The translations under genes were made by a program, and so were the position numbers. Positions 26,298-53,346 of a stretch of DNA of 64,000 bases are shown piece by piece. This stretch comes from Porticoccaceae bacterium (GTDB lineage: Bacteria; Pseudomonadota; Gammaproteobacteria; Pseudomonadales; Porticoccaceae), in the NCBI GenBank assembly GCA_902557735.1, contig CACEBC010000001.1:1-64000 (forward strand), given 5' to 3'. Each line of letters opens with the position of its first letter. Position 1 is the stretch's first letter. A model generated the notes under the pieces. The model saw nothing but the letters and a program-made list of their open reading frames with translations, had not been told where the DNA came from and ran no database searches.

Positions 26298-26334
26298 TTC
26301 GAAAATATTCCGACTTTGGCATCTCAAACCCCTT

Positions 26335-30020: not shown

Positions 30021-30078
30021 GGTCAACCCAATAGTACCAAAGTCAGGTTGCTTGCATTATTCTTAAAAAGATAAGGAT

Positions 30079-30837: not shown

Positions 30838-30863
30838 CTTAAATAAAACCCTTGAGGATAATT

Positions 30864-35427: not shown

Positions 35428-35448
35428 AACGTTCCCCATTTATTAAAA

Positions 35449-36864: not shown

Positions 36865-36870
36865 ACATAA

Positions 36871-36876
36871 CCTCCT
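36871..36876 (-). promoter_or_regulatory. Consensus ribosome binding site deciding a TTG start
   Basis: AGGAGG on the minus strand, six bases before the TTG at 36864. It is the best Shine-Dalgarno match nearby and argues against the ATG 42 bases upstream. Confidence 0.65.
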
Positions 36877-36952
36877 GCTTCGACAATTACCCTTTCGCCC
36901 AATCACTTGCCAACGGTTTCACTAAGAGTCATTATACAATCATTCAAAAAAT

Positions 36953-36966
36953 TAAACAGTCATTTA
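36953..36966. promoter_or_regulatory. Candidate operator TAAACAGTCATTTA before the TetR-GNAT gene
   Basis: This 14-mer matches 11 of 14 positions of the palindrome TAAATGTTCATTTA found in the shared element upstream of the Rieske gene. It lies in the 154-base divergent region, 53 bases before the regulator start. Autoregulation by the TetR domain is the inference. Confidence 0.45.
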
Positions 36967-37018: not shown

Positions 37019-38128
37019 ATGTCTACAACCAATCCTGCAATCCATCAAGAAAGACGAAAATTGCTAATCGACGCCACAATAACGGCGGTTGCCGAATATG
37101 GATTGTCAAAAGTGACATTGGCAAAGATTAGTTCAATCGCCGGACTCACTGCAGGTACAGTGAATTTCCATTTTGACAGCAAAGAAGCGCTGTTATTGGA
37201 TACTCTCCGCTTTGTCTCTGAGGAGTTTGATCGGAGTATTGCCAATGCCCTAAAAAAAGCCGGAACCGACCCGTCAAAGCGATTAGCCGCGATCATTGAT
37301 GCCTCTCTGGACCCAGATATAACCGAGCACAGAAAAATGGCAGTTTGGCACGCTTTTGATTCAGAAAGCAGGGGGCGACAAGACTATCAGAGAATCCGTG
37401 GATCACTTGACAAACAAAATTTTAAACTGATTCTCAACCTCTGCGAACAAATCATTAAACAAGCAGGCAAACAATCAGACATCGATGCCAGAGCCATTGC
37501 GAATGCAATCTCAGGAATAACAGAAGAAGTTTGGAAGGAAATCCTATTTGCAGGGGAAGATTATGATCGGGATGACGCCAGATATGTATGTTTATGCTTT
37601 TTGGCAAGCATATTTCCTTGGTGCTATGAGATGCCAAGCAAGATAGACAAAAATTGCAACCTATCAACCAAACCAACCACGATTACAAAAGCCACCACAA
37701 ATGACATCAACCAAGTCGCTCGGCTATTTGACCTGTACCGGCAGTTTTATGAACAGGACCCTGATCTTTCCCTGGCTCAACGCTACATACGTGAGCAAAT
37801 TACGAACGACAGTTCAGTGATCTTTATCGCTTGGAGCGGCGAAAGCGAGGACCGTCATGCCGTGGGGTTTACGCAACTGTATAGTTCCTTTTGCAGTGTA
37901 GAGGCAAGCCCGATCTGGGTTCTTTACGATCTATACGTTGAGGAAGATCGCAGAGGGAAAGGAATAGGTAAATCACTCATGCAGCAGGCCCATCAAATGG
38001 CAGCGAAGAGCGATGCGTCTCGCATAGATCTTGAGACAGCCTTCGACAACGTCAACGCTCAAGCGCTATATGAGTCACTCGGTTACCAAAAGGATAATGA
38101 ATTTTATAAGTATTCCCTCGAGCTATGA
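37019..38128 (+). CDS. Fusion of TetR-family regulator (BetI-like) and GNAT acetyltransferase
   Basis: A 369-residue two-domain protein. Residues 10-55 are a TetR DNA-binding domain (helix-turn-helix about 31-52: TLAKISSIAGLTAGTVNFHF), and the ligand-binding domain to about 205 resembles BetI. After a short polar linker (KPTTITKATTND), residues 220-369 form a GNAT domain with acetyl-CoA loop RRGKGIG (311-317) and the NVNAQALYESLGY end. AGGAAG precedes the ATG at 37019; an ATG at 36989 lacks a site. The GNAT domain may acetylate or sense the amine whose catabolic genes surround it. The two domains are in one uninterrupted frame. Confidence 0.9.
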   Translation: MSTTNPAIHQERRKLLIDATITAVAEYGLSKVTLAKISSIAGLTAGTVNFHFDSKEALLLDTLRFVSEEFDRSIANALKKAGTDPSKRLAAIIDASLDPDITEHRKMAVWHAFDSESRGRQDYQRIRGSLDKQNFKLILNLCEQIIKQAGKQSDIDARAIANAISGITEEVWKEILFAGEDYDRDDARYVCLCFLASIFPWCYEMPSKIDKNCNLSTKPTTITKATTNDINQVARLFDLYRQFYEQDPDLSLAQRYIREQITNDSSVIFIAWSGESEDRHAVGFTQLYSSFCSVEASPIWVLYDLYVEEDRRGKGIGKSLMQQAHQMAAKSDASRIDLETAFDNVNAQALYESLGYQKDNEFYKYSLEL

Positions 38129-38137: not shown

Positions 38138-39052
38138 TCAGCCGGAGCCCATTAAATGGATTAATTCGAGCCCTATGGTGGCCGCAGCGAGGGCGGTGAT
38201 CTCAGCATGATCATAGGCGGGAGCAACTTCAACAACGTCTGCTCCGACAACGTTCGATCCTTTCAAGCTGCGAATCATCTTTAACGCCCTATCAGAGCTT
38301 ATGCCACCTACGACAGGAGTTCCGGTTCCCGGAGCATAAGCGGGATCTAGGCAATCAATATCAAAAGTTAAATAAATAGGCATATTACCAACACATTCCA
38401 TGACCTCTGATTGAATATCACTGATTGTCATGTCATTAAGTTTATCAGCAGGGATAACCTTGAATTCATGACTATCGCGGTCATAAGCAGTTCTGATACC
38501 TAATTGGATAGAGCACTCTGGTTCTATAAGTCGCTCTTTCGGCGCCGTATGAAACATACCGCCATGGTCGTATTTGTCGCTTTCCTCGTAGGTATCGGTA
38601 TGCGCGTCAAACTGAATAAGAGCTAGGGTGCCACGATGCTTATGAACTGCCCTTAAAAGCGGCAGTGTGATAAAATGATCTCCGCCTATACAAAGAGTTT
38701 TCTTGCCTAAGGCATGAATACTTTCAACATTATCAATGACTCGATTTACCATATCTTCAGATTCACCCGGGGGAAACTCCAAATCACCAAAATCCAAGAT
38801 CTTTAATCTCTCAAAAGCACTATAACCCCAGGGATGACGCTTCTCTCTCATCTCCCAACGCAAGTTTGCGGAAGCGAGCCGCACAGCCTGAGGACCATGA
38901 CGGGTCCCGGCGCGTCCCGTAGTACCCAAATCATATGGAATTCCCATCACGACCAGGTCTGCATTTTCGACATCTCGAGAAACTGGCACACCCATGAAGC
39001 TTCGCAAATTTGCGAACATGGACTCACTGTTACTCGGTTCATCTCCCGGCAT
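38138..39052 (-). CDS. speB: Agmatinase / guanidino-compound ureohydrolase
   Basis: A 304-residue arginase-fold enzyme. The binuclear manganese ligands are H126 (GGDH), D149, H151 and D153 (DAHTD), and D231 and D233 (DIDCLDPA). Length and motifs fit agmatinase, which splits agmatine to putrescine and urea; guanidinobutyrase is the main alternative. AAGGAG lies directly upstream. It is the last gene of operon III and converges on the TetR-GNAT gene with only nine bases between the stops. Confidence 0.9.
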   Translation of the reverse strand: MPGDEPSNSESMFANLRSFMGVPVSRDVENADLVVMGIPYDLGTTGRAGTRHGPQAVRLASANLRWEMREKRHPWGYSAFERLKILDFGDLEFPPGESEDMVNRVIDNVESIHALGKKTLCIGGDHFITLPLLRAVHKHRGTLALIQFDAHTDTYEESDKYDHGGMFHTAPKERLIEPECSIQLGIRTAYDRDSHEFKVIPADKLNDMTISDIQSEVMECVGNMPIYLTFDIDCLDPAYAPGTGTPVVGGISSDRALKMIRSLKGSNVVGADVVEVAPAYDHAEITALAAATIGLELIHLMGSG

Positions 39053-39094
39053 TATCGCTCCTTAAAACTTGAGAACATTCTTCTAGCGAAAGTT

Positions 39095-40522
39095 TCAGTC
39101 TATCCATATCTCTGTGTCCCGGAGTTCTTCAAGCGTCCGCTGCAACCCAATACGCAAAGCGCCGACAAGGTCATTAATTTGTCCTTTATTTATGATTAGT
39201 GGTGGAGAGATTATACAGATGTTGATAAAGGGTCTTACGAGCAAACCGAGCTCTTGACAGTGCTTATCAACCATATCTCCAATCGCATAGTCTTTTTCCA
39301 GCAAATCCGCTTCATCTTTGCCGCGAATGGTCATCTCCACAGCGGCCATTAGCCCCATACCTCTTACATCACCCACTAGCGGATTATCTCGCAAGGTTTG
39401 AAGTTGTGCTTGAAAGTATGGTCCCAACGTTTGCACATTCTCAAACAGTGCTTCCCTCTCAAGTATGTCCCAACTAGCAAGTGCGGCCGCACAAGCAACG
39501 GGGTTGCCTGACCATGTGTAGCCATTCGAGTAGAGACAGCCATCCGAATTCTCCCCACTAATTTTTTCCATGAAACTGTCCGAAACAGCATACCCACCGA
39601 GAGGCACATAACCGGAAGTGAGCCCTTTGGCAAAAATAATAATATCAGGAATTATTCCAAAAACAGCCTCCGACGCGAACCAATGTCCAAGCCTGCCGAA
39701 TCCCGTTACAACTTCATCCGAAATATAGGTGATGCCATGACTCTTGATCATTTCCCAACACCTTTTATGGTAGTCAGCAGGAGGCACAATTACCCCTCCA
39801 CTGGCGAGAATGGGCTCGGCAATAAAACACATGATATTGTTGGCTCCAACTTCTGCTATTTTCTCCTCCAACTCGCGAATTAGAAAGTCGCAAAATGATG
39901 CCTCTGTCTCATATTGGGAATGATAGTAAAAACACGGCGCCGACAGGAAATGAACGTTTTCGGAAATAGTGTCCATAGCTGTCTTGTCTCTCTCTTTACC
40001 GGTCACAGAGGCCGACAGATACGTACTCCCGTGATAAGCTTTTTCACGAGTAAGAATGTGTTTTCTGTCGGGCTCGCCTCTGATATTTCTTGCTAGCTGA
40101 CACAATCGCAAAGCAGAATCGACGGCAGTTGAACCACCGGTAGTGAAAAAGACACGATTCAGATCTCCAGGTGTTTGACTCGCAATGCGTTCCGCCAGCT
40201 CTACTTCTCTTCTGTTAACCAACGAAAAAGAAGTGGAGTAACTGAGATTCAATATTTGAGCTGCAACAGCCTCAGCTATCTCCGTGCGACCATACCCGGT
40301 TTGCATGCACCACATACCGGCAGGACCATCAAGAAGACGATTACCCTCAGAATCATACACATATACTCCCTCCCCTTTATCGATAATCGAGGAAGAATCA
40401 TCGTGCCCAAGCGAAGATAAATCTCCCCAAGGATGCAATAGATGTTGATTATATTTTTCTCTGTAACTATCGCTTTTCAAATTCACGACCTCTGGACTCA
40501 CAGAGCGAGTGTTGAGACCCAT
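39095..40522 (-). CDS. Class III aminotransferase (polyamine or omega-amino acid type)
   Basis: A 475-residue PLP enzyme with FFTTGGSTAVDSALRL at the phosphate site, the SDEVVTGFGRLG aspartate and K299 in FAKGLTSGYVPLGG. HPWGDLSSLGHDDSSSIID at the N-terminus and DGPAGMWCMQTGYGR are typical of omega-transaminases related to SpuC. It overlaps the upstream amidotransferase gene by 25 bases, so translation is coupled. It is the fourth class III aminotransferase in 14 kb. Confidence 0.88.
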   Translation of the reverse strand: MGLNTRSVSPEVVNLKSDSYREKYNQHLLHPWGDLSSLGHDDSSSIIDKGEGVYVYDSEGNRLLDGPAGMWCMQTGYGRTEIAEAVAAQILNLSYSTSFSLVNRREVELAERIASQTPGDLNRVFFTTGGSTAVDSALRLCQLARNIRGEPDRKHILTREKAYHGSTYLSASVTGKERDKTAMDTISENVHFLSAPCFYYHSQYETEASFCDFLIRELEEKIAEVGANNIMCFIAEPILASGGVIVPPADYHKRCWEMIKSHGITYISDEVVTGFGRLGHWFASEAVFGIIPDIIIFAKGLTSGYVPLGGYAVSDSFMEKISGENSDGCLYSNGYTWSGNPVACAAALASWDILEREALFENVQTLGPYFQAQLQTLRDNPLVGDVRGMGLMAAVEMTIRGKDEADLLEKDYAIGDMVDKHCQELGLLVRPFINICIISPPLIINKGQINDLVGALRIGLQRTLEELRDTEIWID

Positions 40523-41208
40523 CGCCCATATAACTGGTCAGCCACAAACCTTAAGTCTGCAATGTTTTCTTTAAAATCTTTATCGATACTCTTGTAACTC
40601 TGAACACTCTGACTGTCTTCGCTCAAATCCTCTCGCCAATGATCTATCCAATCTCTGAGTAAAGGCTCGGTCATTTCCACATGGCATTGCATTGCAAGCA
40701 CATTGTTGCCTATAGTGAAGGCTTGATTTCGACAATGTTGGGAGGAAAACAAAAGTTTGGAGTTTTCTGGCAATGAAAACGTTTCTTTGTGCCAGTGAAA
40801 CATAGTGAAAGGATCAGAAACCTCCCCCAGCCAATCTTGTGCTGCCAAATCATCCTCCCGCGAGCAAGCATGCCACCCTATTTCCACACGTGGATTAGGT
40901 GAAATTGTTCCGCCAAACGCTTTAGCTATCATCTGCCCCCCGAGACAATGTCCCAAAAGGGGAATTCTCTTTGTCGCTGCAAGTTTGATGAACTCGATCT
41001 CTTGATCCAGCCAAGGGATCCGATCATTTACACTCATTGTACCGCCCATGAAAACGAGCCCAGCAATCGTATCGTCTATGCAAGGTGCTGGCTCCCCTTC
41101 GTATGCCCTGACGAGTCGGACTTGAATATTTCGCTGCCAGAGGAAGTCGGCGATGTAACCTGGATTCTCATCATCCATATGCATAAAAACGATAATTTGC
41201 CGTGTCAT
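40498..41208 (-). CDS. Class I glutamine amidotransferase-like protein
   Basis: A 236-residue protein with the class I amidotransferase triad: C88 in LLGHCLGGQ, H176 and E178 in QCHVEMT. There is no synthase domain. Free-standing members of this group hydrolyse gamma-glutamyl amides or serve as glutaminase subunits. Here it sits directly after the PuuB-like oxidase, so removal of glutamate from a gamma-glutamylated intermediate is a good guess, parallel to PuuD of operon I. Confidence 0.85.
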   Translation of the reverse strand: MTRQIIVFMHMDDENPGYIADFLWQRNIQVRLVRAYEGEPAPCIDDTIAGLVFMGGTMSVNDRIPWLDQEIEFIKLAATKRIPLLGHCLGGQMIAKAFGGTISPNPRVEIGWHACSREDDLAAQDWLGEVSDPFTMFHWHKETFSLPENSKLLFSSQHCRNQAFTIGNNVLAMQCHVEMTEPLLRDWIDHWREDLSEDSQSVQSYKSIDKDFKENIADLRFVADQLYGRWVSTLAL

Positions 41209-41216
41209 ATCAACCG

Positions 41217-42500
41217 CTACACCATATCAAGGATTTTGTAGAACATCATGCCAGCTGCCATAAGAGGTCTTCGGAAAATCTTGCCACCAGGCCAAGATAG
41301 ATGCAGCATCTTACTCAGAATATCCATCCGATAAGTGTTACCATCGATAGCTTCAGCAAGCACGCGACCAGACATATGAGTTGGCGCCAACCCATGGCCT
41401 GAGTAGCCAGTCGCATAGAGTACATTACTATCTTGTATACGCCCCAATTGCGGCATGCGACGGATACTAACCCCAATCTTTCCAGACCAGGCATAATCGA
41501 TACCCACTGATTTGAGAGTGGGAAACACCTTGGCCATATGACTTCTCATCACGTCACTTACATTTGGAGGTTCAAGACCAGTGTAGTTTGAGAGGCCACC
41601 CATTAATAGCCTTTTGTCCGCGGTCAAACGGTAATAATCAAGTGCTGTCCTAGAATCACATACAGCGACATCACGGGACATAGTCCGATTAATTTGGTCA
41701 TCAGATAGCTGTTCCGTCGCGATTATACAACTCACTGTAGGCAACACTCTTGCATCAAGATAGGGCACTAACTTGGTCATATAAGCGTTTCCGCAAAGTA
41801 TGGCAAAACGAGCTTGAACTGAGCCATTTTCTGTCGAAATCACGGGGTTGTTAGAGTATTTTATTGCCGTGACTTTGGATTTCTCAAATATTTTCGCTCC
41901 GAGTCCCTCTGCAGCCTTGGCCTCGCCAAGGCAGAGATTCAGCGGGTGCAGGTGCCCCCAATCCTCTCGATAATATCCTCCTAAATATAGTTCAGAATTT
42001 ACAAATTGTCTCATTTCCTCTCGATTAAGCAATTGAATAGCTGGTTCATCAGATGACCAATTTTTATAGGCCTTTAAATGCCTTTTTTTTAGGGCAACTT
42101 CGCACCATCCCCATTTTAAGTCACAGTCTATTTTATACTTTTCAATACGCTCGCTTACGATATCAACGCACTCAACACCCATGTGTTCAACTACATCAAC
42201 GCCCTCTGGGCCAATTGTGCGTCTGAAAGCAGATGGATTATTACCAAATCCACCAATCAACTGCCCTCCATTTCGTCCCGAGGCTCCCCAACCAATTCGA
42301 TTGGCTTCGAGCAAAATAACCTCATAACCACGCTCGCTCAGCTCCAAAGCTGCGGCGACACCACTGAAACCGCCACCGACTATCACAACATCTGCATTCA
42401 AGTCATTTTGCAATTTGGGATAGTTAGTTTGCCAGTTCGCAGAGGCTGCGTAGTAGGAGGCTGTGTGTTCGGTCGAATCTTGAGAGCGTCTAAGAAGCAT
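41217..42500 (-). CDS. puuB: Gamma-glutamylputrescine oxidase-like FAD oxidoreductase (DAO family)
   Basis: A 427-residue flavoprotein. The Rossmann motif ADVVIVGGGFSGVAAALEL starts at about residue 36, ending in the LLEA acidic residue, and RIGWGASGRNGGQLIGGF is the covalent-flavin-region signature of PuuB/PauB-type oxidases. LYATGYSGHGLAPTHMSG near the C-terminus contacts the flavin. The family oxidises the free amine of gamma-glutamylated polyamines to an aldehyde. It lies 44 bases behind the Rieske oxygenase gene and 8 bases before the amidotransferase gene. Confidence 0.88.
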   Translation of the reverse strand: MLLRRSQDSTEHTASYYAASANWQTNYPKLQNDLNADVVIVGGGFSGVAAALELSERGYEVILLEANRIGWGASGRNGGQLIGGFGNNPSAFRRTIGPEGVDVVEHMGVECVDIVSERIEKYKIDCDLKWGWCEVALKKRHLKAYKNWSSDEPAIQLLNREEMRQFVNSELYLGGYYREDWGHLHPLNLCLGEAKAAEGLGAKIFEKSKVTAIKYSNNPVISTENGSVQARFAILCGNAYMTKLVPYLDARVLPTVSCIIATEQLSDDQINRTMSRDVAVCDSRTALDYYRLTADKRLLMGGLSNYTGLEPPNVSDVMRSHMAKVFPTLKSVGIDYAWSGKIGVSIRRMPQLGRIQDSNVLYATGYSGHGLAPTHMSGRVLAEAIDGNTYRMDILSKMLHLSWPGGKIFRRPLMAAGMMFYKILDMV

Positions 42501-42544
42501 AGTTATCTTTAAGCCCTTGAAGTTGGATTGAATATTGAGTTTGA

Positions 42545-43855
42545 CTATGTTGATATTAAGGAAACGTTATCCTTCTTAGGACGTGCCTCAGAGCCAGCCA
42601 AACTCCAGCGCTTTAGCGCCAACAGGTACCACTGAACAAATTCTGAGCAAAGAGCCTCATACTCGGGATGATAAGGACCAGGCTCAAAAAAGTTTGAGTT
42701 CACCCCTTCGCTATTCCGCAAAATGATATATTCATCCTCCAAGGTCGTCTGATGCCAGAGCCAAGTCAAATCGTCTTTCGCGTAATCCACCCCCTCCTTT
42801 GCATCGCCATTCACATACCAAACCACTTCCATATCGGTTTCGGTGATGCCTCGCGGTGTGAACCGATAAAGGACACAGTGATCGGGATAGTTGAGCATAA
42901 AGGCTAGCGGTCCCATCTGAAAGTCACCGGCACCCCCATCGTAACCTCTAAATTTACCCATTAATGGTGCCACCGGCTCACCATCTTTGCTGCCTGTTTT
43001 GAAACCATCATAAAGTGCATAGCGACTATGGTAAGAGCATGCTCCAAAGGCGGATGAATCATTATAATAAGCGTAATGATCATCTGTGATTCCTTTGACA
43101 CCAGTGAGTTCCTCCGCCCTCGCCAACATAGCTTCGTTTATCGGCTTAACTTTTTCGTCTGGGGCAGCAAGCGTATGCATCCGTGCATATTGGCGATGTG
43201 AACTCGAACAATGATAACACTCAAGATAATTCTCAAGACACAATTTCCAGTTTGCACTAACCCTATATGTCCTGCTGTCCGCAATTCTAGCACTCGCCAA
43301 ACCGTAGGCTCCCAAGGGCTTTGCGATATGACTGAGGGGTACTGAAAAGTCAGGCGCATCAGGGTCACAATTAATAAATATCATTCCCTCGAACACGACA
43401 AGGCGTACCTTCTTTAAGCCATAGTCAGCACAATCGAACCCATTCAGACGTTCCATCTCTCTGGCTCTTTTGAGCGAACCGTCTGTGTTATAAGTCCAGC
43501 CATGATAAGGGCAAACGAACGCTTTTTTGTTACCACTGCTCTCCTCACAAACCCGAGCGCCTCGATGCCGACAGATATTGTGCATTGCACCAATCTGCCC
43601 AAGATCGTCACGGCTAATAATTAACGAATCTTCGCCAATTTCAAAAAGGAAAAAATCCCCGCTATGACGAACTTGGCTAACGTGTCCCGCGTAGAGCCAA
43701 CTCTTGAAAATAACGCTCTCCAGTTCAGCCTGGTAAGTGAAATGGGACCGGTAGAAATAGCGATCCATGGCAAATCCGGGTTTCTGTAACTGGACAGCGA
43801 TCATGTCAAGCATCTTTTTTTTGCTGTCCGCAACATCCGTAGCTATGAATTTCAT
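42545..43855 (-). CDS. Rieske-type oxygenase alpha subunit (choline/betaine-monooxygenase-like)
   Basis: A 436-residue ring-hydroxylating-oxygenase-type subunit. The Rieske 2Fe-2S ligands are C95, H97, C115 and H118 (CRH, then CPYH). The catalytic iron region is NYLECYHCSSSH, with E212, H215 and H220. A glutamate in ECYHC is seen in the choline, betaine and carnitine monooxygenase branch that attacks methylammonium groups. No reductase gene is adjacent, so the electron partner is encoded elsewhere. First gene of operon III, directly behind the shared 40-bp element. Confidence 0.9.
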   Translation of the reverse strand: MKFIATDVADSKKKMLDMIAVQLQKPGFAMDRYFYRSHFTYQAELESVIFKSWLYAGHVSQVRHSGDFFLFEIGEDSLIISRDDLGQIGAMHNICRHRGARVCEESSGNKKAFVCPYHGWTYNTDGSLKRAREMERLNGFDCADYGLKKVRLVVFEGMIFINCDPDAPDFSVPLSHIAKPLGAYGLASARIADSRTYRVSANWKLCLENYLECYHCSSSHRQYARMHTLAAPDEKVKPINEAMLARAEELTGVKGITDDHYAYYNDSSAFGACSYHSRYALYDGFKTGSKDGEPVAPLMGKFRGYDGGAGDFQMGPLAFMLNYPDHCVLYRFTPRGITETDMEVVWYVNGDAKEGVDYAKDDLTWLWHQTTLEDEYIILRNSEGVNSNFFEPGPYHPEYEALCSEFVQWYLLALKRWSLAGSEARPKKDNVSLIST

Positions 43856-43883: not shown

Positions 43884-43897
43884 ATGCGTGAACGCAT
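43884..43897. promoter_or_regulatory. Perfect inverted repeat ATGCGT-GA-ACGCAT
   Basis: A 14-base inverted repeat 28 bases upstream of the Rieske gene start, between it and the shared 40-bp element. It could be a second operator or lie in the 5' leader. It is not present in the equivalent region before operon IV. Confidence 0.45.
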
Positions 43898-43910
43898 AAT
43901 ACATCAATTA

Positions 43911-43950
43911 TCTAAATGGTAATATAGATTACTAAATGTTCATTTAATTT
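43911..43950 (-). promoter_or_regulatory. Shared 40-bp element, copy A (upstream of Rieske operon III)
   Basis: It begins TCTAAATGGT, contains the perfect palindrome TAAATG-TT-CATTTA (43933-43946) and a further TAAATG exactly 20 bases before the first half-site. It aligns without gaps to 51994-52033, with 30 of 40 positions equal by my count. It lies 56-95 bases upstream of the Rieske start codon, where an operator or promoter is expected. A TetR-type binding site is inferred. Confidence 0.7.
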
Positions 43951-43968
43951 ATTCATGTTAAGAAAGGT

Positions 43969-45342
43969 TCAAATCGAACGCAAATACCACTCATAATCGA
44001 CATTTGAAACTTTAGCTGCAAACATATCACACTCACTTCTCCGCACTGCACTAAAGATTCGGTGATATTCAGCTCCAATGTAACGTGACAAGTTGTTGCC
44101 AGATTCGAAAACTTCGAGCGCTTTGTCCCAGGTTCGAGGCAAAGTCAGGTTATGCTCCATCTCTACTCCCTCTCCAATCATCTCACCAGGGTCAGATTGA
44201 GAGATAATTCCATGGTGGATTCCTGCTGCCACAGCCGCCATAACCAAATATGGATTAGCATCAGCTCCAGCCACGCGATGCTCTAAACGGCGATTCTTGT
44301 GACCGGAAACAGGGATTCGCAAGGACACGTCTCGATGGTTATAACCCCAGTTAGGTGCTAAAGGGGCATAGTTTCCCGGGACCAGGCGTCGGTAAGAGTT
44401 TGCGTTTGGCGCAAAAATGGCCATAGCCTCGGGCATAGTGGCGATCAGACCTCCTATGGCGCAACGCAATTTTTCCGATATCGCTGGTGCCACTGTGGAA
44501 GATAAATCAGCAAAAATATTTTCTCCTTGCTGGTCATAAAGGCTAAAATGTATATGCAAACCACAGCCAGCTATTCTCTCAAACGGCTTGGCCATGAAAC
44601 TTGCTGCCATCCCGTGTTGCCTGGCGACCCCCTTTATAATCCTTTTGAGCAAAACAGTTTGATCGCACGCCACAATCGGATCTCTAACGTGATGAAGGTT
44701 AATTTCATACTGACCTGGAGAATATTCCGAATGCACCGTTGTCATTGGCACGTCTTGCTCAGCACAAGCAGCCCTGACGGCCTCAAGGAACTCATCGTTG
44801 TCCCAGAGGTCTTCCGGCATAGCATATTGAATGCCACCTTGATCTATGCCGGTACCGGGAACCTTGGCCAGTTTCAGGTTAGGCATCGAACCATCCCCGG
44901 CTTCAATTAAATAAAATTCTAGTTCGGTTGCAACCATTGGCGACAAACCCAAGTCATAAAGCGGTTCAAGCGCGCTTTTAAGCACGTTGCGGGGATCAAA
45001 AAGGATCGGCTTTCCATCGAGATCATTGAAGGTAGAAATTACCTGCCCAGTCTCAGATCCCAGCCAGGTAATTGGCGCCAAAGTGTTTGGGACAGGGGAA
45101 ATAATCCTATCCGGGTCCCCTTCCAGATTTAAAAAATCAAGGTCACCCGTCATCTCCCCAAGCACATTAAGCAAAAGTGTCGTCGCAGGACCATTGACCC
45201 CTGTTTCGAAAAAGCCTTCAAACTCTTGTCTAGGTATCCGCTTGCAGCGAAAGATCCCGTTGATATCAGGAATCAATAACTCAAGCGAGTTGGTTTTTGG
45301 ATATTGACGCAAAAAATCTTGCAACTCATTTTTCTTACCCAT
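43969..45342 (-). CDS. Glutamine synthetase-like ligase (gamma-glutamylamide synthetase type)
   Basis: A 457-residue glutamine-synthetase-fold protein. ATELEFYLIEAG, GQYEINLHHV, CGLHIHFSL and NSYRRLVPGNYAPLAPNWGYNHRD are the expected ATP, metal and substrate regions. It is clearly different in sequence from the ligase at 28632-30020. It is the last gene of operon IV and overlaps the upstream acyl-CoA synthetase gene by eight bases. Gamma-glutamylation of an amine, with the PuuB-like oxidase of operon III acting next, is the natural hypothesis. Confidence 0.88.
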   Translation of the reverse strand: MGKKNELQDFLRQYPKTNSLELLIPDINGIFRCKRIPRQEFEGFFETGVNGPATTLLLNVLGEMTGDLDFLNLEGDPDRIISPVPNTLAPITWLGSETGQVISTFNDLDGKPILFDPRNVLKSALEPLYDLGLSPMVATELEFYLIEAGDGSMPNLKLAKVPGTGIDQGGIQYAMPEDLWDNDEFLEAVRAACAEQDVPMTTVHSEYSPGQYEINLHHVRDPIVACDQTVLLKRIIKGVARQHGMAASFMAKPFERIAGCGLHIHFSLYDQQGENIFADLSSTVAPAISEKLRCAIGGLIATMPEAMAIFAPNANSYRRLVPGNYAPLAPNWGYNHRDVSLRIPVSGHKNRRLEHRVAGADANPYLVMAAVAAGIHHGIISQSDPGEMIGEGVEMEHNLTLPRTWDKALEVFESGNNLSRYIGAEYHRIFSAVRRSECDMFAAKVSNVDYEWYLRSI

Positions 45343-47461
45343 ACTGGCTAGTGCCTCCCGAAGTGTCCTTTACAGAGGTAATATTTTTCAGAACAATCAG
45401 CGCATCCAGACCGACACATCCATGCTCAGTGATCAAGACTGGATTTATATCAATCTCACCTATTAAGCAGGAAAACTCAGCCACGAAAACAGAAAATCTG
45501 GCTGCAGTTTCACAATAGCATTGTATATCTAACGCAGGCTTTCCACGAAAGTCAGTCAGAATCGTTCGCATGGATAGCTGATCAAGAGCGCAAGCCACCG
45601 TGTCGGCATCGAATGGCGGATATAATACGCGCGTTTCATTCAAAGCTTCCGCATAAATACCCCCGAAACCGACAATTACAAACGGACCGAATTGACTGTC
45701 ATTCATCATGCCTAGAATCATTTCCACACCATAAGAACTCACCATCGGCGAGACGATAGCGGCCTTTCCGAGACGCTCGCTGAGAGCCAAGTAAGCCTCT
45801 CTAAGTTCTTCTTCAGAAGTTAAATTTAGCACAACGCCATCGCGTTCAGTTTTGTGTTTTATATTAGGCGCGGCAGTTTTAAGTGCGAGAGGGTATCCGA
45901 AAATTTTAGCAGCGAAGAGTAAGGTCTGCTCATCATGCACCAACTTGCTGGGATTCATTGGTATCCCAAAGTCAGAGAGGAGTTGACCCGCAATTGTTTC
46001 ATTTATATCAATTTCTTTTGAAAGTCTCTGACGCCAGCTCACAATCAGTTCACTATCCGCTGCAACTGGCACTGACATCTTGCGAAGATGAAAATCTCGA
46101 TATTGTAGTAGACATTTCGTGCCTATAAGGAACTGGCTCACCCCGTCAATAACCGGTAACCCTTTGTGGGTTGAATCTATGGCCAGTTGGTCGCTTCCGC
46201 TTCCCTGCCTGTTGGCTACAAGAAACATTGGCTTCCTAGTCACTGACCGGGCTTCATTTAAGTATTCCACATAATTGGGATACACCAGGCTGTCGGGTCC
46301 ACGATCATGCACCACAGCGCCTAGCGCTGCCGACTTGTCCTCCATTAAGGCTGAAAAACAGGCTGACATTTTCTCGTCAGCTCCAGGGCCACCGGCCCAA
46401 GCATCCAGTGGATTTATAGCTGGCAAACTTGGATGAAGATTATGCAAAAGTTTTGCCTTGGTTTTTTTGGACAGCTCGGCTATTGGCACATCATACTTAT
46501 CAGCCAAGTCCACGAGAAGTTGGCGCTCACCCCCCGAATCATGTAGACAAACAAGGGCACCCGACCGAACAGACTCTGGCTGCGCAAACATAATCAAAGC
46601 AGTTGCCAACTGATCCATATCCTCCACCCTTTGAACACCAAATGCCTCAAAAACCGCGGAGTAACACCTATCGCTACCAGTTAGAGCCCCAGAATGAGAT
46701 ACCGCTAGCTCAGCAGCAAAAGGGGAGCGCCCAACTTTCACAACCACAATGGGGATTTTTTTTTCCTGCGCTTTTTCAAGAGCCCTTAAAAATTTTGCTG
46801 GCTCCCGACTAGTTTCCAGAAATAAACCAACAGCCAAAGTTTCTGGAAGATCGAGCGCGTAGTCCAGATAATCCTCCATGGTCACCGAAAACTCATAACC
46901 AGTTGATACCGCAAGGTTAAATTGTAATCGCTGTTCACAATCAACTATACCCTGCATCCCTGCGCCCGACTGGCTGATTAGACTTACACTACCGGGAGGA
47001 GGATGATCCCTAGTATCGAATGCTCCGGCCAGCACATGATCTCGGACATTAAAAAAGCCCAAACAGTTGGGCCCAGCAACAAGTAAACCGGAGTCCAAGA
47101 TTTTCGATTTTAGTCTTTCCTTAAGAGGAGGTTTTGTGTCATCTCTCAATATAAGTGATGAGAAGATCGAGCATGCTTTGACGCCCAAATCAATGATCTC
47201 ATTTACCGCATCCTCCAATCGGTGATCGCCGACGGCCAGGATCACGTGGTCTGGGACCTCAGGCAGATCAGCCAGGCTAGCGTAGCAGGTCAAATCATTG
47301 ACCTGTTCATAGGACGGGTTGACGGGATATAGTCTCCCGGGAAAGCTCCCTCTAGCGAGATTAACAAATATTTCGTTCCCAACGGAACCAAGTGTCCTCG
47401 AGGCCCCCAAAACTGCTATTGATGTTGGCTTCAGTAACGGGTTTAGCCGGTGCTCAGTCAT
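45335..47461 (-). CDS. NDP-forming acyl-CoA synthetase (acetate--CoA ligase family)
   Basis: A 708-residue fusion of alpha and beta parts. Residues 1 to about 460 hold the CoA-binding Rossmann domain (SIAVLGASRTLGSVGNEIF) and succinyl-CoA-ligase-like domains with GPNCLGFFN, SQSGAGMQG and the phosphohistidine-type VSHSGALTGSD. From about 475 an ATP-grasp domain follows (SDFGIPMNPSKLV, KIFGYPLALK, IGEIDINPVL). There is no GNAT domain as in Pat. It interconverts acyl-CoA and acid with ADP/ATP. Its ATG shares one base with the stop of the GcvT-like gene (TAATG). Confidence 0.88.
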   Translation of the reverse strand: MTEHRLNPLLKPTSIAVLGASRTLGSVGNEIFVNLARGSFPGRLYPVNPSYEQVNDLTCYASLADLPEVPDHVILAVGDHRLEDAVNEIIDLGVKACSIFSSLILRDDTKPPLKERLKSKILDSGLLVAGPNCLGFFNVRDHVLAGAFDTRDHPPPGSVSLISQSGAGMQGIVDCEQRLQFNLAVSTGYEFSVTMEDYLDYALDLPETLAVGLFLETSREPAKFLRALEKAQEKKIPIVVVKVGRSPFAAELAVSHSGALTGSDRCYSAVFEAFGVQRVEDMDQLATALIMFAQPESVRSGALVCLHDSGGERQLLVDLADKYDVPIAELSKKTKAKLLHNLHPSLPAINPLDAWAGGPGADEKMSACFSALMEDKSAALGAVVHDRGPDSLVYPNYVEYLNEARSVTRKPMFLVANRQGSGSDQLAIDSTHKGLPVIDGVSQFLIGTKCLLQYRDFHLRKMSVPVAADSELIVSWRQRLSKEIDINETIAGQLLSDFGIPMNPSKLVHDEQTLLFAAKIFGYPLALKTAAPNIKHKTERDGVVLNLTSEEELREAYLALSERLGKAAIVSPMVSSYGVEMILGMMNDSQFGPFVIVGFGGIYAEALNETRVLYPPFDADTVACALDQLSMRTILTDFRGKPALDIQCYCETAARFSVFVAEFSCLIGEIDINPVLITEHGCVGLDALIVLKNITSVKDTSGGTSQYG

Positions 47462-48642
47462 TAAAAATTTGGGGCTGGTGTCTGTCTTCTTCTGGCAGGT
47501 GCGAAGACGGGTCCATCAATGACCTTGCAGGACGCCATAACCCTAGTCCATTTTAGCTCCCGCTCATAGTAGATTTCTGCAATCAGAGATTGTCCTTTTG
47601 AACCATATCGAGCATCTACTTGAGCAAAAGCAATATTTGTCTTTGCCGTGGGACACCAAGCTGCAGATGTAATCGTACCAACCTCTATGTCCGCATGGTA
47701 AACGAAAGCATGCTCAGCCGGCTTGTTGCCCTCGACATCTAAATAAACGAATGCATAACGAGAACCCTGCGCGCGTTCTTTCAAGAGTGCCTTTCGACCA
47801 TTAAAAACGGGCTTATCAAACGAAACCAACCATCCCAATCCCAGTTCGAAAGGAGAGCGCGAACGACCACTCCTGATGGCTTCGTCGGCCGGAACAAAAT
47901 CCACGCCAGCCTGCAGAAAACCAGCTTCAATTCGAAGCATATCCAGCGCACTACTCCCGATAGCGCGGATACCATATAGCTTCCCGGCATCAAAAAGAGC
48001 GTCCCAAAAAATCTCCCCCAGATTCGGTTCCATCCATACTTCATAACCTAGGTCACCTGTGAAACCCGTCCTGCTGACCATTAATTGTGAGCCAGAAAAA
48101 TTAAAATAAGCCATGCCAAACGGTTTCAATAATTCTATTCCCGAGAAGCCCATGGCCTTTAGCACCGCGCAAGAGGTGGGCCCCTGAACGGCCAAAGCAG
48201 CCACCTCTGCGGTTTCCTCGCAAATGGTTACATCGAATCCCTCAGCAGTCCACATCAGCCAATCAAGCGCTCGCGTGTAACAGCACAAACGATAATCATT
48301 TTCGGATAGACGGAATATAGTGCCATCGTCCATTACTTTTCCTTCACCATCGCACCATAAGACATAGGATACTCTGCCAACAGCTAGCTTTCTGATATCT
48401 CTTGTGATTAATTTGTTGATAAAGGCACCGGAATCGGAACCCGATATGCGGTATTTAGTCATCGGTGAAAGATCAAAAACACCAGTGCTGTTGCGAACAG
48501 CAAAGTACTCCATATCAATCTCAGTGAACACCTGTGGCGTGGTATAACCTTTCCAGTCTTCCCAGAGATTAACTTCACAAGCCGCTTCGCAACGCGAGTG
48601 AAATGGAGTATGCAATATCATGGACTCATTATGTGGAATCAT
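47461..48642 (-). CDS. GcvT-like aminomethyltransferase (tetrahydrofolate-dependent)
   Basis: A 393-residue protein of the GcvT/DmdA/YgfZ fold. RNSTGVFDLSPMTKYRISG, VQGPTSCAVLKAMG, SRTGFTGDLGYEVWMEP and GSSALDMLRIEAGF are the family landmarks. Members transfer a methyl or methylene group from an amine or sulfonium donor to tetrahydrofolate. No glycine-cleavage P, H or L genes are near, so a free-standing demethylase is likely. It overlaps the upstream oxidoreductase gene by 14 bases. Confidence 0.88.
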   Translation of the reverse strand: MIPHNESMILHTPFHSRCEAACEVNLWEDWKGYTTPQVFTEIDMEYFAVRNSTGVFDLSPMTKYRISGSDSGAFINKLITRDIRKLAVGRVSYVLWCDGEGKVMDDGTIFRLSENDYRLCCYTRALDWLMWTAEGFDVTICEETAEVAALAVQGPTSCAVLKAMGFSGIELLKPFGMAYFNFSGSQLMVSRTGFTGDLGYEVWMEPNLGEIFWDALFDAGKLYGIRAIGSSALDMLRIEAGFLQAGVDFVPADEAIRSGRSRSPFELGLGWLVSFDKPVFNGRKALLKERAQGSRYAFVYLDVEGNKPAEHAFVYHADIEVGTITSAAWCPTAKTNIAFAQVDARYGSKGQSLIAEIYYERELKWTRVMASCKVIDGPVFAPARRRQTPAPNF

Positions 48643-50242
48643 AGAAATTTGGCCTTTTCAGTTTTTTTTTTTGCGAAAGAATCTCTTTTGCAGTGTTCAA
48701 ACCCGCTAGCCCCATTACACCCCCACCGGGATGAGTTCCTGCGCCACTCAAATATAGGCCATCAATCGGAGTCCTATATTGGGAAACACCCGGAAAAGGT
48801 CTCATCATCAAAACCTGATCCAAACTTATTTCTCCATGATGCCAATGTCCACCATGCATCAAATGACGTTGTTCGATATCTAGAGGCGTTAACAATTCCA
48901 CCGATAGCGTTTGTTGCTTAATGTCAGGATAGTATTGCGATAGACAATCTATGAGCAGGTCCTGAAAAGGTTGCTTGCCTGCTTCCCAACCACCTTCTAG
49001 GTCATAAGGAGCATATTGCACAATTGCCGATAAAACATGCTTGCCATCTGGCGCCAGACCTGAGTCATGAATACTAGGAATACTTATGTCCATAATGGGT
49101 GACTTGGAGAATTGACCATATTTGGAAGGATTGAATGCTCGTTCTATGTATTCCATATTGGGAGCTATTAATAATCTATCACCAGTCCGAGATTCCGCTA
49201 GTCCTCTGAACTTGGGCAAGCCGTCCAAAGCAATATGCAGCTTGGCTGCATCACCCTTCATCCGCACGTTCTTTACCCTACGCACGGTATCAGTCTCCAA
49301 GTTAACTGGGCCAACAAATTTCTCAAACGTCGTTTTCGGATCAGAGCTGGAAACAACGATCCCGGCTTTTAATTCACGTCCGTCTCTCAGAATTACTCCG
49401 GTTACCTTATCAACGTCAATGCTGATTCGATCGACAACGGCATTGAGTTCAATATCTACACCAAGTGCCTTCACAGCTTTTGCCATCGATTGGCCCAGTT
49501 GGCCCATCCCGCCCCTTACCAATGAGACACCGGGACGACCATACCCAAAAATGTCACCCATGTGCCGATAGAGGTACCCAAAGACAGTGTTCGGCGATCT
49601 TGGACCCATATGAGATCCGAGCACTGAATCAACACTAATCGCCGCCTTTAAAAGATCATTATCAAAATTTTCTTCCATTACGTCATATATATTGATCAAC
49701 CCTAAACGCATCAAATCGCGCATGTCTGACTTACCGAGCATCTTTATCTTCATACCTAAACCCAGGAGCGCGAGGACGTCTCCAAAGCTTCTCTCGATCA
49801 AGCTCGGCGGCCGACGCTTGAATGCCTTACTTAAAACATCACAAAATTTCATCATCTGCTTGTTAAATGATTTAAATGCCATCTTGTCTTTTTCGGAGAT
49901 TCCAGCACCTGCAAGCCTATCTCCAAAAATGGTTAAATGATTACCAGTCTCGCTAAGAATAGTGGTGGGAATGTTACGTGCCGATAACTCAAAACCATTC
50001 TGCTTGAGGGACATTTGGGAAATCACGCTTTCATCCAATTGGTACAACCACTGCGCGCAAGAGGAAACTGAAAATTGTTCGAAAAACTCGGTGGTTGCGC
50101 AAGCCCCGCCCGGGGAATGAAGCGCTTCGAGCACAATTACCTTTTTACCGGCCTTAGCAAGCGATGCAGCGCACGCCAAACCATTGTGTCCGCCGCCAAT
50201 CACAACGACATCATATGCTGATTTGAGGTCAGTCATCATCAT
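48629..50242 (-). CDS. PYROXD2/phytoene-desaturase-like FAD oxidoreductase, copy 2
   Basis: A 537-residue flavoprotein. The dinucleotide motif YDVVVIGGGHNGLACAA is at about 9-25 and the C-terminal flavin contact is YLSGAGTHPGGGVMGLAG. It has the overall layout of CrtI-like amine-oxidase-superfamily proteins (PYROXD2 group), whose bacterial substrates are largely unknown. It is a tandem paralogue of the next upstream gene; both have RPFPG-x-x-QYR before the C-terminal motif. Three ATGs in a row make the exact start uncertain. It overlaps both neighbours by 14 bases. Confidence 0.85.
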   Translation of the reverse strand: MMMTDLKSAYDVVVIGGGHNGLACAASLAKAGKKVIVLEALHSPGGACATTEFFEQFSVSSCAQWLYQLDESVISQMSLKQNGFELSARNIPTTILSETGNHLTIFGDRLAGAGISEKDKMAFKSFNKQMMKFCDVLSKAFKRRPPSLIERSFGDVLALLGLGMKIKMLGKSDMRDLMRLGLINIYDVMEENFDNDLLKAAISVDSVLGSHMGPRSPNTVFGYLYRHMGDIFGYGRPGVSLVRGGMGQLGQSMAKAVKALGVDIELNAVVDRISIDVDKVTGVILRDGRELKAGIVVSSSDPKTTFEKFVGPVNLETDTVRRVKNVRMKGDAAKLHIALDGLPKFRGLAESRTGDRLLIAPNMEYIERAFNPSKYGQFSKSPIMDISIPSIHDSGLAPDGKHVLSAIVQYAPYDLEGGWEAGKQPFQDLLIDCLSQYYPDIKQQTLSVELLTPLDIEQRHLMHGGHWHHGEISLDQVLMMRPFPGVSQYRTPIDGLYLSGAGTHPGGGVMGLAGLNTAKEILSQKKKLKRPNFYDST

Positions 50243-51851
50243 ATCCCCGCGGGACGAGGGATGCCCTGTTTAGATCCATGAGTATTTCCCTCGCAGCGTT
50301 TGCTCCGGGCGCTGCCATAACTCCGCCGCCCGGGTGCGTGCCTGAACCACACATATACATTCCCTTCACGGCCGGCACCCGATATTGCGCATACCCGGGG
50401 AATGGACGATTGAAAAGCAACTGATCGAAGGTCAACTCGCCCATGAATATATTGCCCTCAGTGAGCCCCACTTCATTTTCAATATCTTGTGGTGACCTAA
50501 CCTCGCAGTGAAGAATCAGGTCTTTAAAATTAGGGCTGTAACTAGATATCTGGTCTATGACCGTTTTCCCAAACGCGTCTCGATCCTCGCTTGTCCAGTC
50601 ACGACCATCTATCTTGGGCGGCGCGTACTGAACGAAAACCGACATCATATGCTTGCCTGGGGGCGCCATGGTAGGATCCACCTGAGTAGGGATAAGCATG
50701 TCCACATAAGGGTCTTTTGACCAAGTCCCGCTCTTCCAATCATCGTAGGCCCGCTCCATTCTCGGGAGCGAGTCAATAAAATGTTTCTCACCCAGGCAAA
50801 GAGGACTTTCTTTGGGTAATCCATTGAACGTAGGCAAACCATCCAACGCAATATTGAGTTTGCCCGAAGATCCCCGAATCTTAAAGTTTTTCGCCTTACT
50901 GACCAAATCTTTGGGCAAGTCTGTCTCTTGCATTATTTTTAAAAAGGTTCGCTTTGGATCCAAATTTGAAACGACAATCCTCCCGTGAATCTCATCACCA
51001 TTTGTCAGCGCAACACCGACAGTTTTGCCATTCTTGACGATTATCTGCGCGACTTCCGAATCACATTGAACTGTTCCGCCGAAAGATTTAAACGCACCAG
51101 CCAAAGCATTTGATACAGCTCCCATTCCACCGCGGGCCAAGCCCCATGAGCCGATTGATCCGTCAACGTCTCCCATATAATGATGTAACAGCACATAAGC
51201 GGTGCCGGGAGAATACACGCCCAACGCTGTTCCAATAATACCGCTCCCGGCCAAGTGGGCTTTAACGACATCTGACTCGAAATATTCCTCAAGGAAGTCA
51301 CCAATACTCATGGTCCAAAAACGCATGGTATCGGCTAAACCAACTTCACCCATGCCACCGAATGCTTTAGCCATGCCAATGAGCTCGCGGATATCTCTCG
51401 GTTTTAACGAAGTCGGGTCTGGTGGGGTTCGCATAAGAAAAGGGCGAATGATCCTAGTCTGCTTCATGACGTCTGCTTCGTAGCGGCTGTAGGCATCAGC
51501 GTCTCGCTTGGAATGACGTGCCAACTCTCTGTGATGACGTTCATGATCGGTATGATTGCCGAAGTAATCACCATTTTGCATGAAGGTCACGCCGCCACCA
51601 TAAGGCACCACCTGCAACCCTTGACTCGGAAGCCGCAAGTCGCGAATGATTTCGGGTCGCAACAAACTGCATACATATGAGCAATTGGTGTACTTCCAAT
51701 TTGGGTAAAGCTCTCTGCTAACAGCGGCACCACCGATGTAGCCATTGCGCTCTAGCACGACCACCTTGAGCCCAGCTTTTGCCAGATATGCGGCATTCGT
51801 AAGCCCGTTGTGTCCTGCTCCGACTACAATTGCATCGTATTTTTCAGCCAC
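50229..51851 (-). CDS. PYROXD2/phytoene-desaturase-like FAD oxidoreductase, copy 1
   Basis: A 540-residue flavoprotein and first gene of operon IV. YDAIVVGAGHNGLTNAAYL binds the ADP part of FAD, YIGGAAVSRE follows, and MYMCGSGTHPGGGVMAAPG is the C-terminal flavin motif. There are no carotenoid synthesis genes nearby, so carotene desaturation is unlikely; oxidation of an amine or ring substrate is more in line with the neighbours. The start is GTG with GGAG nine bases upstream. The two tandem copies may form a heterodimer. Confidence 0.86.
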   Translation of the reverse strand: MAEKYDAIVVGAGHNGLTNAAYLAKAGLKVVVLERNGYIGGAAVSRELYPNWKYTNCSYVCSLLRPEIIRDLRLPSQGLQVVPYGGGVTFMQNGDYFGNHTDHERHHRELARHSKRDADAYSRYEADVMKQTRIIRPFLMRTPPDPTSLKPRDIRELIGMAKAFGGMGEVGLADTMRFWTMSIGDFLEEYFESDVVKAHLAGSGIIGTALGVYSPGTAYVLLHHYMGDVDGSIGSWGLARGGMGAVSNALAGAFKSFGGTVQCDSEVAQIIVKNGKTVGVALTNGDEIHGRIVVSNLDPKRTFLKIMQETDLPKDLVSKAKNFKIRGSSGKLNIALDGLPTFNGLPKESPLCLGEKHFIDSLPRMERAYDDWKSGTWSKDPYVDMLIPTQVDPTMAPPGKHMMSVFVQYAPPKIDGRDWTSEDRDAFGKTVIDQISSYSPNFKDLILHCEVRSPQDIENEVGLTEGNIFMGELTFDQLLFNRPFPGYAQYRVPAVKGMYMCGSGTHPGGGVMAAPGANAAREILMDLNRASLVPRGYDDD

Positions 51852-52185
51852 CTACGCAGCTCCAAAAAGAGAGGAAGAATTAATCAAAATTTCAACCCAA
51901 ACTGTCTCGGCAGAATGCCCAATCACCTAACTGCTGTCAAACACAAAGCCGAAGTTTTACCTTACATCGATCGAGGCGAGTATACAATAATTTTCTAAAT
52001 GGTGGTACAGGGTATTAAATGGGTATTTAATTGACAAAGTCGCCGGTTTTGGGAGGCGCTGATGGCAACGCTCAGTGACTCGTTTTTAGTGACTGGGACC
52101 ATTTTTCTTTTTACTATGAGAGCTGAATCAAACTAAACTATTACCCCCTTCTTAGAGCGTTCAGTTTTCATCATCAGGAGTAGTC
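51852..52185. other. Divergent promoter region of operon IV and acyl-CoA dehydrogenase
   Basis: No gene. It holds the shared 40-bp element (51994-52033) near the middle, so one regulator could act on both directions. I see nothing else I can support. Confidence 0.55.
51994..52033 (-). promoter_or_regulatory. Shared 40-bp element, copy B (upstream of operon IV)
   Basis: It begins TCTAAATGGT like copy A and carries TAAATG-GG-TATTTA (52016-52029), one mismatch from a perfect palindrome, with another TAAATG 20 bases before. It lies 143 bases upstream of the GTG of operon IV and 152 bases before the divergent acyl-CoA dehydrogenase. Conservation in two otherwise unrelated intergenic regions implies a common regulator. 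Confidence 0.7.
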
Positions 52186-53346
52186 ATGGAAATTCAGCAC
52201 AGCGACAAGACCTTAGCCTGGCAAAAAATAGTTAGAGAGTTTGTGGAATCTCTCCTGATTCCCTGGGAAATAGAAGCCGAGCTTAATAAGGGCATTATCC
52301 CTGATGATGTTGCTCAAAACATGCAAACCCGTGCAATCGAGTTAGGCCTCTCTCGGATGGATGCCCCAAAAGCGTTTGGAGGGTTAGGCATGAGCATGGT
52401 TGATCAATTGGTAGCTTGGGAGGAACTTGGAACAGTAACCAACGCTCTTTGTTGGTGCTTTCCTGAGGCCCAAGAATGGATGTTCGAAGCCTGTGGGAAC
52501 AGTGATCATCAAATCAAAAATTACCTTCAACCATTGATGGATGGGCATCTTCGAGAATGTTATGCGATAACTGAATCTGAATCAGGGTCTCATGAAGTTG
52601 TGGAAACCAAGGCAGAACGTTGCAAAGGTGGTTATGAAATTTCTGGCGAAAAATGGTTTGTTACTACAGCTAATTTGGCCGATTTTTTCTTCCTTCAAGC
52701 CAGGTTGGAAAGCGGGGAAGATGCATTGTTCTTTATAGATAAAGATTCACCCGGCATTTCAATGATTGAAAACCCACTATTTTCGCATACCTTTCCATCG
52801 CATCATCCAACATATAAGTTTGAACGCGTGTTTGTGCCAGAGGTAAACCGTATCGGAGAGGAAGGCGAGGGCATGACTTACAGTCGGAATTGGTTCCGGC
52901 ATGAACGATTAACGATAGCAGCGAGAATGCTGGGTGCCGCGAGAAGAATGATCGAGGAGGCAACAGAATGGGCGTCGCAACGAAGGATTCAGGAAGAGTA
53001 TCTAATCGACAAACAAGCAACGCAGTTTGCCCTAGCTGACTGTGTCACCGAGCTCTGGGCATCTAGGCTCATGGTTTATGAGGCAGCAGCAGCGCATGAT
53101 CGAGGCGATGACCCTAAGGGTCTCCATATTCAGTGCTCAATGGTAAAACTTTATGCCACGGAAATGGCCAATCGCGTAGCTGACCGCTGCCTCCAAATAT
53201 GGGGCGGGCGCGGTTACCGCAGAGACAATGCAGTGGAACGTTTTTATAGGGAAGTTAGAGTTGACAGAATTTGGGAGGGTAGCAGCGAGATCCAGCGAAT
53301 AGTAATTGCCAAGGCCCTGCAGAAACGAGGTCTAAAAGGTATGTGA
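52186..53346 (+). CDS. Acyl-CoA dehydrogenase
   Basis: A 386-residue acyl-CoA dehydrogenase. YAITESESGSHEVVETKA is the FAD/substrate region (a variant of TEP-AGSD), GEKWFVTTANLADFF follows, and the catalytic glutamate lies in RIWEGSSEIQR near the C-terminus, as in most family members. ICQ-type WGGRGYRRDNAVERFYR is a standard segment. AGGAG lies six bases before the ATG. It diverges from operon IV and shares its regulatory region, so it may act on a CoA ester arising from the amine pathway. Confidence 0.9.
   Translation: MEIQHSDKTLAWQKIVREFVESLLIPWEIEAELNKGIIPDDVAQNMQTRAIELGLSRMDAPKAFGGLGMSMVDQLVAWEELGTVTNALCWCFPEAQEWMFEACGNSDHQIKNYLQPLMDGHLRECYAITESESGSHEVVETKAERCKGGYEISGEKWFVTTANLADFFFLQARLESGEDALFFIDKDSPGISMIENPLFSHTFPSHHPTYKFERVFVPEVNRIGEEGEGMTYSRNWFRHERLTIAARMLGAARRMIEEATEWASQRRIQEEYLIDKQATQFALADCVTELWASRLMVYEAAAAHDRGDDPKGLHIQCSMVKLYATEMANRVADRCLQIWGGRGYRRDNAVERFYREVRVDRIWEGSSEIQRIVIAKALQKRGLKGM

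Follow-up and report, generated by a model that had tools for sequence, protein, structure and literature searches.

A paired palindromic element as the candidate operator of a TetR-acetyltransferase fusion in an amine-catabolic gene cluster of Porticoccaceae

We examined a 64,000-nt stretch of a Porticoccaceae bacterium genome (assembly GCA_902557735.1, contig CACEBC010000001.1; hereafter the window), in which an earlier note had described the same 40-bp element upstream of two adjacent catabolic operons, here called the Rieske and AO1 operons. The element consists of two inverted repeats at a fixed spacing, and a third copy, overlooked in that note, lies between an aminotransferase operon and the divergent gene for TetR-GNAT, a predicted fusion of a BetI-type TetR domain with an acetyltransferase domain. 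We conclude that the double element is very probably the autoregulated operator of TetR-GNAT, through which this protein would govern the Rieske, AO1 and aminotransferase promoters. The note had already proposed TetR-GNAT as the regulator, and it is the best candidate because the third copy sits in its own promoter and the site recurs in most related TetR-GNAT promoters. Its description of the shared element as direct evidence of a common regulator was too strong, since the sites and their conservation support such a regulator on grounds of sequence. The physiological unit into which it joined ten genes is probably larger, including TetR-GNAT itself and the two divergent aminotransferases.

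Anatomy and occurrence of the double element

The copies at 43911-43950 and 51994-52033 align without gaps and are identical at 30 of 40 positions; we recounted both the coordinates and the identities, and they agree with the earlier note. Each element comprises two 14-bp inverted repeats separated by 6 bases (14-6-14), with centres 20 bp apart, a half-site of approximately TRWAYR and a full repeat of TRWAYR-NN-YRTWYA. Read on the minus strand, which is the coding strand of both operons, the gene-distal repeat of the Rieske (R) and AO1 (A) elements is near perfect (TAAATG-NN-CATTTA and variants) while the gene-proximal repeat has one weak half (TATATT or TGTACC). The third element (T) has the same 14-6-14 layout with its weak half placed differently. 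As to the flanks, which the earlier note held to be dissimilar, R and A remain alike for a further 10-13 bp or so in the direction of the gene, through the -10 box (identity 0.80 in that bin), and beyond this the dissimilarity holds, at 0.24-0.33. Over the window's clade (its own genome, G000, with G003, G006 and G007), identity is 0.55-0.88 per 10-base bin across the element and roughly ten bases more, and 0.12-0.33 farther out.

The full arrangement is rare. A 39-base joint pattern with up to three mismatches occurs twice in the window and not at all in 100 dinucleotide shuffles, and a 34-base pattern built from the R and A copies matches the assembly of this genome (1.95 Mb, 69% complete) at no other position, with no control matches. 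In leave-one-promoter-class-out tests, the held-out site always ranked in the window's top three (24.6, 22.0 and 26.4; next best 7-10). The last of these scores was given to T by a matrix trained without T sites; for comparison, the highest value that the full matrix gave in 100 simulated sequences of 64 kb was 16.2. We also searched genomes with a model of 12 sites (three promoters in each of the four clade genomes), scoring 150 candidates per genome among the 163 to 2085 found in a first look. Each genome gave three full-length matches (E 1e-9 to 8e-7), every one of them within this cluster, and other matches at E <= 10 were partial. In the window's own genome (150 of 1298 candidates scored) the three are intergenic, with E of 1e-8 to 8e-7, and apart from a partial reverse match within the first copy nothing else reached E <= 10. 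A genome-wide matrix scan was one of the checks that the earlier note had set beforehand, and its outcome favours the element; as the twelve matches are the model's own training sites, the informative point is that no further full-length site appeared.

Conservation and association with the TetR domain

All three elements are conserved in G003, G006 and G007. An alignment of four TetR-GNAT proteins, used as query, retrieved 38 named loci, and genes were mapped on 34 of them. Fourteen of the loci are titled Porticoccaceae or SAR92, and the others are labelled OM182, Pseudohongiella, Haliea, Halioglobus, Dasania, HTCC2148 or simply Gammaproteobacteria, with two alphaproteobacterial records. These loci were scored with a symmetric half-site matrix trained on the window's clade only. 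Accordingly, the rows representing training genomes (L140, L141 and L168, for G003, G007 and G006) were not counted; the upstream region of L174 was masked and L177 contains only 41 matched residues. TetR-GNAT promoter regions were lengthened by 45 nt, after which six promoters whose assumed start had cut the region short give spacing 20.

The double site is present in 26 of 30 related TetR-GNAT promoters, with a best spacing of 20 in 25 and of 21 in L162. Among Rieske promoters, spacing 20 is best in 17 of 20 (16 of 19 named loci, and G011, where the site is diverged but in register), compared to 4% of shuffled promoters. Conservation of the palindrome in orthologous promoters, to which the earlier note had tied its proposal, is therefore present. 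Across 32 whole loci (573,551 bases, including the training genome L168), sites at spacing 20 scoring above 14 occur only at TetR-GNAT and Rieske promoters. In 30 loci fetched for AO1 and its paralogs, the only site above 14 (L207:4297-4330, 27.1) was an unsought one in a Dasania genome, ahead of a Rieske gene that starts at about 4401. Moreover, of the 167 regions examined upstream of other genes in the cluster, 148 have no site; 21 regions exceed a score of 12, of which 19 hold the TetR-GNAT site viewed from the divergent gene and two have spacing 26.

These distributions bear on the possibility that the element is mainly core promoter architecture inherited from one copied promoter rather than an operator. 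Such a reading would account for its overlap with the -35 positions, for the likeness that continues through the -10 box and for the appearance of the AO1 copy as a duplicate of the Rieske promoter. We nevertheless judge it very unlikely, as the 14-6-14 layout persists on either strand at promoters whose -10 boxes lie at differing places, and as the upstream regions of other cluster genes carry the element only where the TetR-GNAT site is seen from its divergent side.

The presence of the site also follows that of the TetR domain. None of five Rieske promoters in genomes without this TetR domain has the double site, compared to the 17 of 20 above (Fisher p 0.001, with relatedness ignored). These genomes are G025, G035 and G042, which have the GNAT domain alone, and G013 (88% complete) and G051, in which no close TetR-GNAT was found. 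The stand-alone GNAT proteins (L098:5619-6068, L080:17901-18389 and L209) are 54% identical to the fused domain and have no TetR part; they may represent domain loss or an unfused state. Conversely, in four loci of distant relatives a single reading frame joins the TetR domain to the alpha subunit of a Rieske oxygenase: L169:1823-3733 (opened frame of 636 aa), L172:9869-11848 (659 aa), L173:9866-11848 (660 aa) and L175:9947-11791 (614 aa), with Pfam run on all except L173. All four have a double site upstream, including L172 (22.9; at 45% identity it falls below the filter for counting) and L175 (16.7). Because the site is also found upstream of a TetR domain fused to a Rieske oxygenase instead of GNAT, in these genomes it appears to accompany the TetR domain with either of the two fusion partners. 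No double site was found in the L176 promoter or with the TetR of G057, which has a different C-terminal part. A further TetR-domain relative (L085:8751-9956, 42%) carries a C-terminal extension of about 190 residues with no Pfam match at E 0.001.

An alternative is that an unlinked transcription factor, such as an AraC- or LysR-type activator acting on a 20-bp direct repeat beside -35, co-regulates the three promoters. Upstream of the Rieske and AO1 operons, the strong half-sites do line up as a 20-bp direct repeat that ends near -35, which is an activator-like position. Each unit is nevertheless an inverted repeat, and the weak half lies elsewhere at the aminotransferase promoter. Given also that the site occurs together with a TetR-domain gene, that all five Rieske promoters in genomes without this domain lack it, and that TetR-GNAT has the only DNA-binding regulator domain among the 39 window proteins scanned with Pfam (a part of the window's open reading frames), we regard an unlinked factor as improbable.

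Several observations weigh against assigning the operator to TetR-GNAT. Four of the 30 TetR-GNAT promoters have no detected double site (L160, L163, L164 and L165; 48-51% identity), and the recognition helix of the site-less L160, L163 and G056 differs little. The Rieske promoters without a site (L160, L164 and L165) are of the same diverged type. The counted loci are not independent events, as L145 is the named record of G011, L165 is that of G056, and L166 and L171 are near-copies. When only Rieske and AO1 sites were used to build a model, the third site was missed at E <= 10 among the 150 candidates scored per genome, probably because its weak half is in another place; the symmetric half-site matrix was used after this miss. 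Lastly, the single 14-bp palindrome with at most one mismatch is not enriched genome-wide, with 14+14 sites compared to 15+16 in the reversed control, and a search with TAAATGNNYATTTA alone was dropped as uninformative. Since the single palindrome occurs at control frequency, the information resides in the double arrangement. This background frequency of the lone palindrome would speak for chance similarity or a dispersed repeat, yet the absence of the full pattern from shuffled sequence, the three full-length sites at the same genes in four species, the absence of any Rfam match at gathering scores in window positions 30000-60000 and the conservation in orthologous promoters make that explanation barely credible.

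Separately, L165 (CAMAXE010000001.1) is titled as a Klebsiella pneumoniae metagenome-assembled genome and its genome (G056) falls in the window's order; the label is probably wrong.

The AO1 promoter

Of the two operon sites, only that of the Rieske operon is widespread, and the AO1 site is a clade-specific addition. It is confined to G000, G003, G006 and G007, and none of 25 other AO1 promoters has a double site at spacing 20 (best score 10.6; L196, whose match starts at residue 67, was left out). At these 25 loci, a gene for a second type of TetR (TetR-A) is present in 23, a palindrome of the type TGAATNNNNRTTCATT in 22, and a -35/-10 pair with a spacing of 16-18 in 19. The palindrome is missing from L163, L164 and L165 and is present in the AO1 promoters of G025, G035, G042 and G051. 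The best pair has spacing 30 in 10 of the 25 promoters (L178-L183, L185-L187 and L190; up to 20.4) and consists of the neighbouring palindrome with a weaker partner, so the second TetR may also use a double site, at another spacing.

In the four genomes of the window's clade the TGAATNNNNRTTCATT-type palindrome is absent, and the place beside AO1 that in many relatives is taken by the TetR gene is occupied by an acyl-CoA dehydrogenase gene. With TetR-A as query against six genomes, TetR-GNAT was the best match in five (29-35% identity) and G013 gave a weak match; TetR-A was not found in the clade. The old AO1 -35/-10 pair is kept in all four genomes at spacing 17. In a tree of AO1 proteins, the clade forms a single branch (100/100) nested in a group of 18 rows (100/99); the rest of that group has the second TetR, and the exact sister of the clade (87/74) is less sure. 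By these comparisons the AO1 site is a recent gain of the window's clade, and the Rieske and TetR-GNAT sites are older and widespread. As the likeness between the Rieske and AO1 promoters covers the element and runs through the -10 box and not beyond, we read it as a copied promoter module. Most likely, the Rieske module was duplicated and the copy came to lie some 55 bases ahead of the old AO1 -35, the alternative being convergence. This site would have arisen when the AO1 operon lost its dedicated TetR repressor.

Further AO1-AO2-GcvT modules, with AO1 about 60% identical to that of the window, were seen in L086 (C7 of the window's own genome), L089, L090 and L093; none has a double-site matrix match above 4.

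Cluster content, regulator and proposed regulation

The positions of the elements, genes and promoter boxes are given in Table 1. Boxes resembling TTGTATAGT stand at a similar distance in several related Rieske promoters. The gene content of the pathway (agmatinase family, class-III aminotransferases, gamma-glutamyl-synthetase-like, GATase, Rieske and GcvT) suggests amine breakdown with demethylation. A neighbouring operon (24585-34003) includes a second glutamine-synthetase-like gene with peptidase C26 (PuuD-like), aldehyde dehydrogenase, aminotransferase and MFS genes, and a half-site matrix scan found no double operator in it. Elsewhere in the window, a 281-aa protein (54144-54989) has no Pfam or NCBIfam match and its relatives recur near AO1-type modules, and a TPR protein (58751-60772) has a sub-threshold BTAD match.

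Table 1. Predicted regulatory elements, genes and promoter boxes in the window.
Feature	Position	Strand	Remarks
R element, putative double operator	43913..43946	minus	Precedes the Rieske/DAO/GATase/aminotransferase/agmatinase operon, with its end 57 bp from the start codon
A element, putative double operator	51996..52029	minus	Upstream of the AO1/AO2/GcvT/acyl-CoA synthetase/glutamine-synthetase-like operon and the divergent acyl-CoA dehydrogenase gene
T element, putative third double operator	36933..36966	minus	Between TetR-GNAT (plus) and aminotransferase (minus)
TetR-GNAT: BetI-type TetR domain fused to acetyltransferase domain	37019..38128	plus	Start by alignment; Pfam TetR_N, TetR_C_6, Acetyltransf_1
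Rieske operon: Rieske oxygenase, FAD oxidoreductase (DAO), GATase, class-III aminotransferase, agmatinase family	38138..43855	minus	
AO1 operon: two FAD amine-oxidase-like proteins, GcvT-like, NDP-forming acyl-CoA synthetase, glutamine-synthetase-like	43969..51851	minus	
Two class-III aminotransferases, divergent from TetR-GNAT	34105..36906	minus	Probably controlled by the T element
Acyl-CoA dehydrogenase, divergent from AO1	52186..53346	plus	Possibly also under the A element
Putative -10 box TATTAT, Rieske operon	43896..43901	minus	By eye; -35 position inside the gene-proximal palindrome
Putative -10 box TATACT, A element	51979..51984	minus	By eye
Putative -10 box TATAAT, aminotransferase operon	36931..36936	minus	By eye; overlapped by the T element
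Old AO1 promoter TTGACA-17-CATTCT	51912..51940	minus	Retained though the palindrome beside it in relatives is gone

TetR-GNAT matches PF00440 with 36.7 bits (cut-off 24), and its N-terminal domain is all-helical in a structural model (pLDDT 85). The predicted palindromic operator at its own promoter, the T element, is the layout of an autoregulated repressor gene. TetR-GNAT scores below the NCBIfam cut-offs for BetI, the choline-responsive repressor of choline/betaine catabolism, at 94 bits against 201.3 for TIGR03384 and 92.3 against 118 for NF001978. Because of these scores and an operator unlike the betI box, we consider that, judged by its sequence, the regulator has a BetI-type domain but is not BetI. 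In structure comparison, the nearest solved relatives of the GNAT domain include the diaminopropane acetyltransferase Dpa of Acinetobacter (8a9n, Z 21.7 over 142 residues, 35% identity) and, tied with it, the uncharacterised 2eui, a probable acetyltransferase (Z 21.3), with SSAT and aminoglycoside acetyltransferases at about 19. In sequence comparison, 2eui is first (E 2e-25) and Dpa (8a9o) second (E 1.9e-21). The domain models well, and these neighbours suggest an amine ligand.

Two repeats 20 bp apart, or about two helix turns on the same face, suggest that two dimers would probably bind side by side on each operator. QacR and some other TetR-family repressors bind as two dimers per operator region; a likeness to them here would follow from the two separate palindromes. 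As placed by eye, the -35 position of the Rieske and AO1 promoters falls within the gene-proximal repeat, as does the -10 box of the aminotransferase promoter, such that binding would repress transcription. TetR-GNAT would also repress its own gene, and an amine metabolite, possibly polyamine-like, would probably release it.

The closest layout that we have seen is the divergon of Ruegeria pomeroyi BetI2, an autoregulated BetI-type repressor. In that system, two palindromes in one intergenic region overlap the -35/-10 boxes of divergent genes, BetI1 controls a second promoter through a similar box, the betI box is ATTGACG*CGTCAAT and the two BetI2 palindromes overlap (PMC12442346). By contrast, the repeats described here do not match the betI box by eye and form separate palindromes, and the passages of the Ruegeria work that were consulted describe no GNAT or Rieske fusion (PMC12442346). 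Dpa is a stand-alone enzyme (PMC10267138), whereas the predicted GNAT domain described here follows a TetR domain in one protein, encoded in an amine-catabolic cluster. TetR-A is of the same BetI-like kind and would control the orthologous AO1 operon in relatives; it differs in being 29-37% identical to the TetR part of TetR-GNAT and in its TGAATNNNNRTTCATT-type palindrome. No TetR-GNAT or TetR-Rieske regulator of this kind is named in the literature that we searched by title and abstract start, a coverage that mostly leaves out subscription papers.

We tentatively hypothesize, as a broader scenario that we hold to be possible though less than even, that a BetI-like TetR lineage has more than once been joined to an enzyme from the pathway that it controls (in SAR92/OM182/Halieaceae-type bacteria a polyamine-type acetyltransferase, elsewhere a Rieske oxygenase) while keeping a fixed two-dimer operator, so that the amine sensor may also consume or modify the amine. 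In the window's clade, a second operon would then have been captured from its own repressor by copying a 50-bp operator-promoter module.

The host group belongs to the common marine Gammaproteobacteria. For these bacteria, the analysis offers a candidate operator motif, regulator and target set for a large amine-catabolic cluster, the substrate of which could be found via the inducer. The AO1 operon would represent a repressor switch with traces of both states: the old promoter persists, its former operator and repressor have disappeared, and a new operator has been added. More generally, repressor-enzyme fusions on the same operator raise the question of whether the enzyme domain tunes the inducer.

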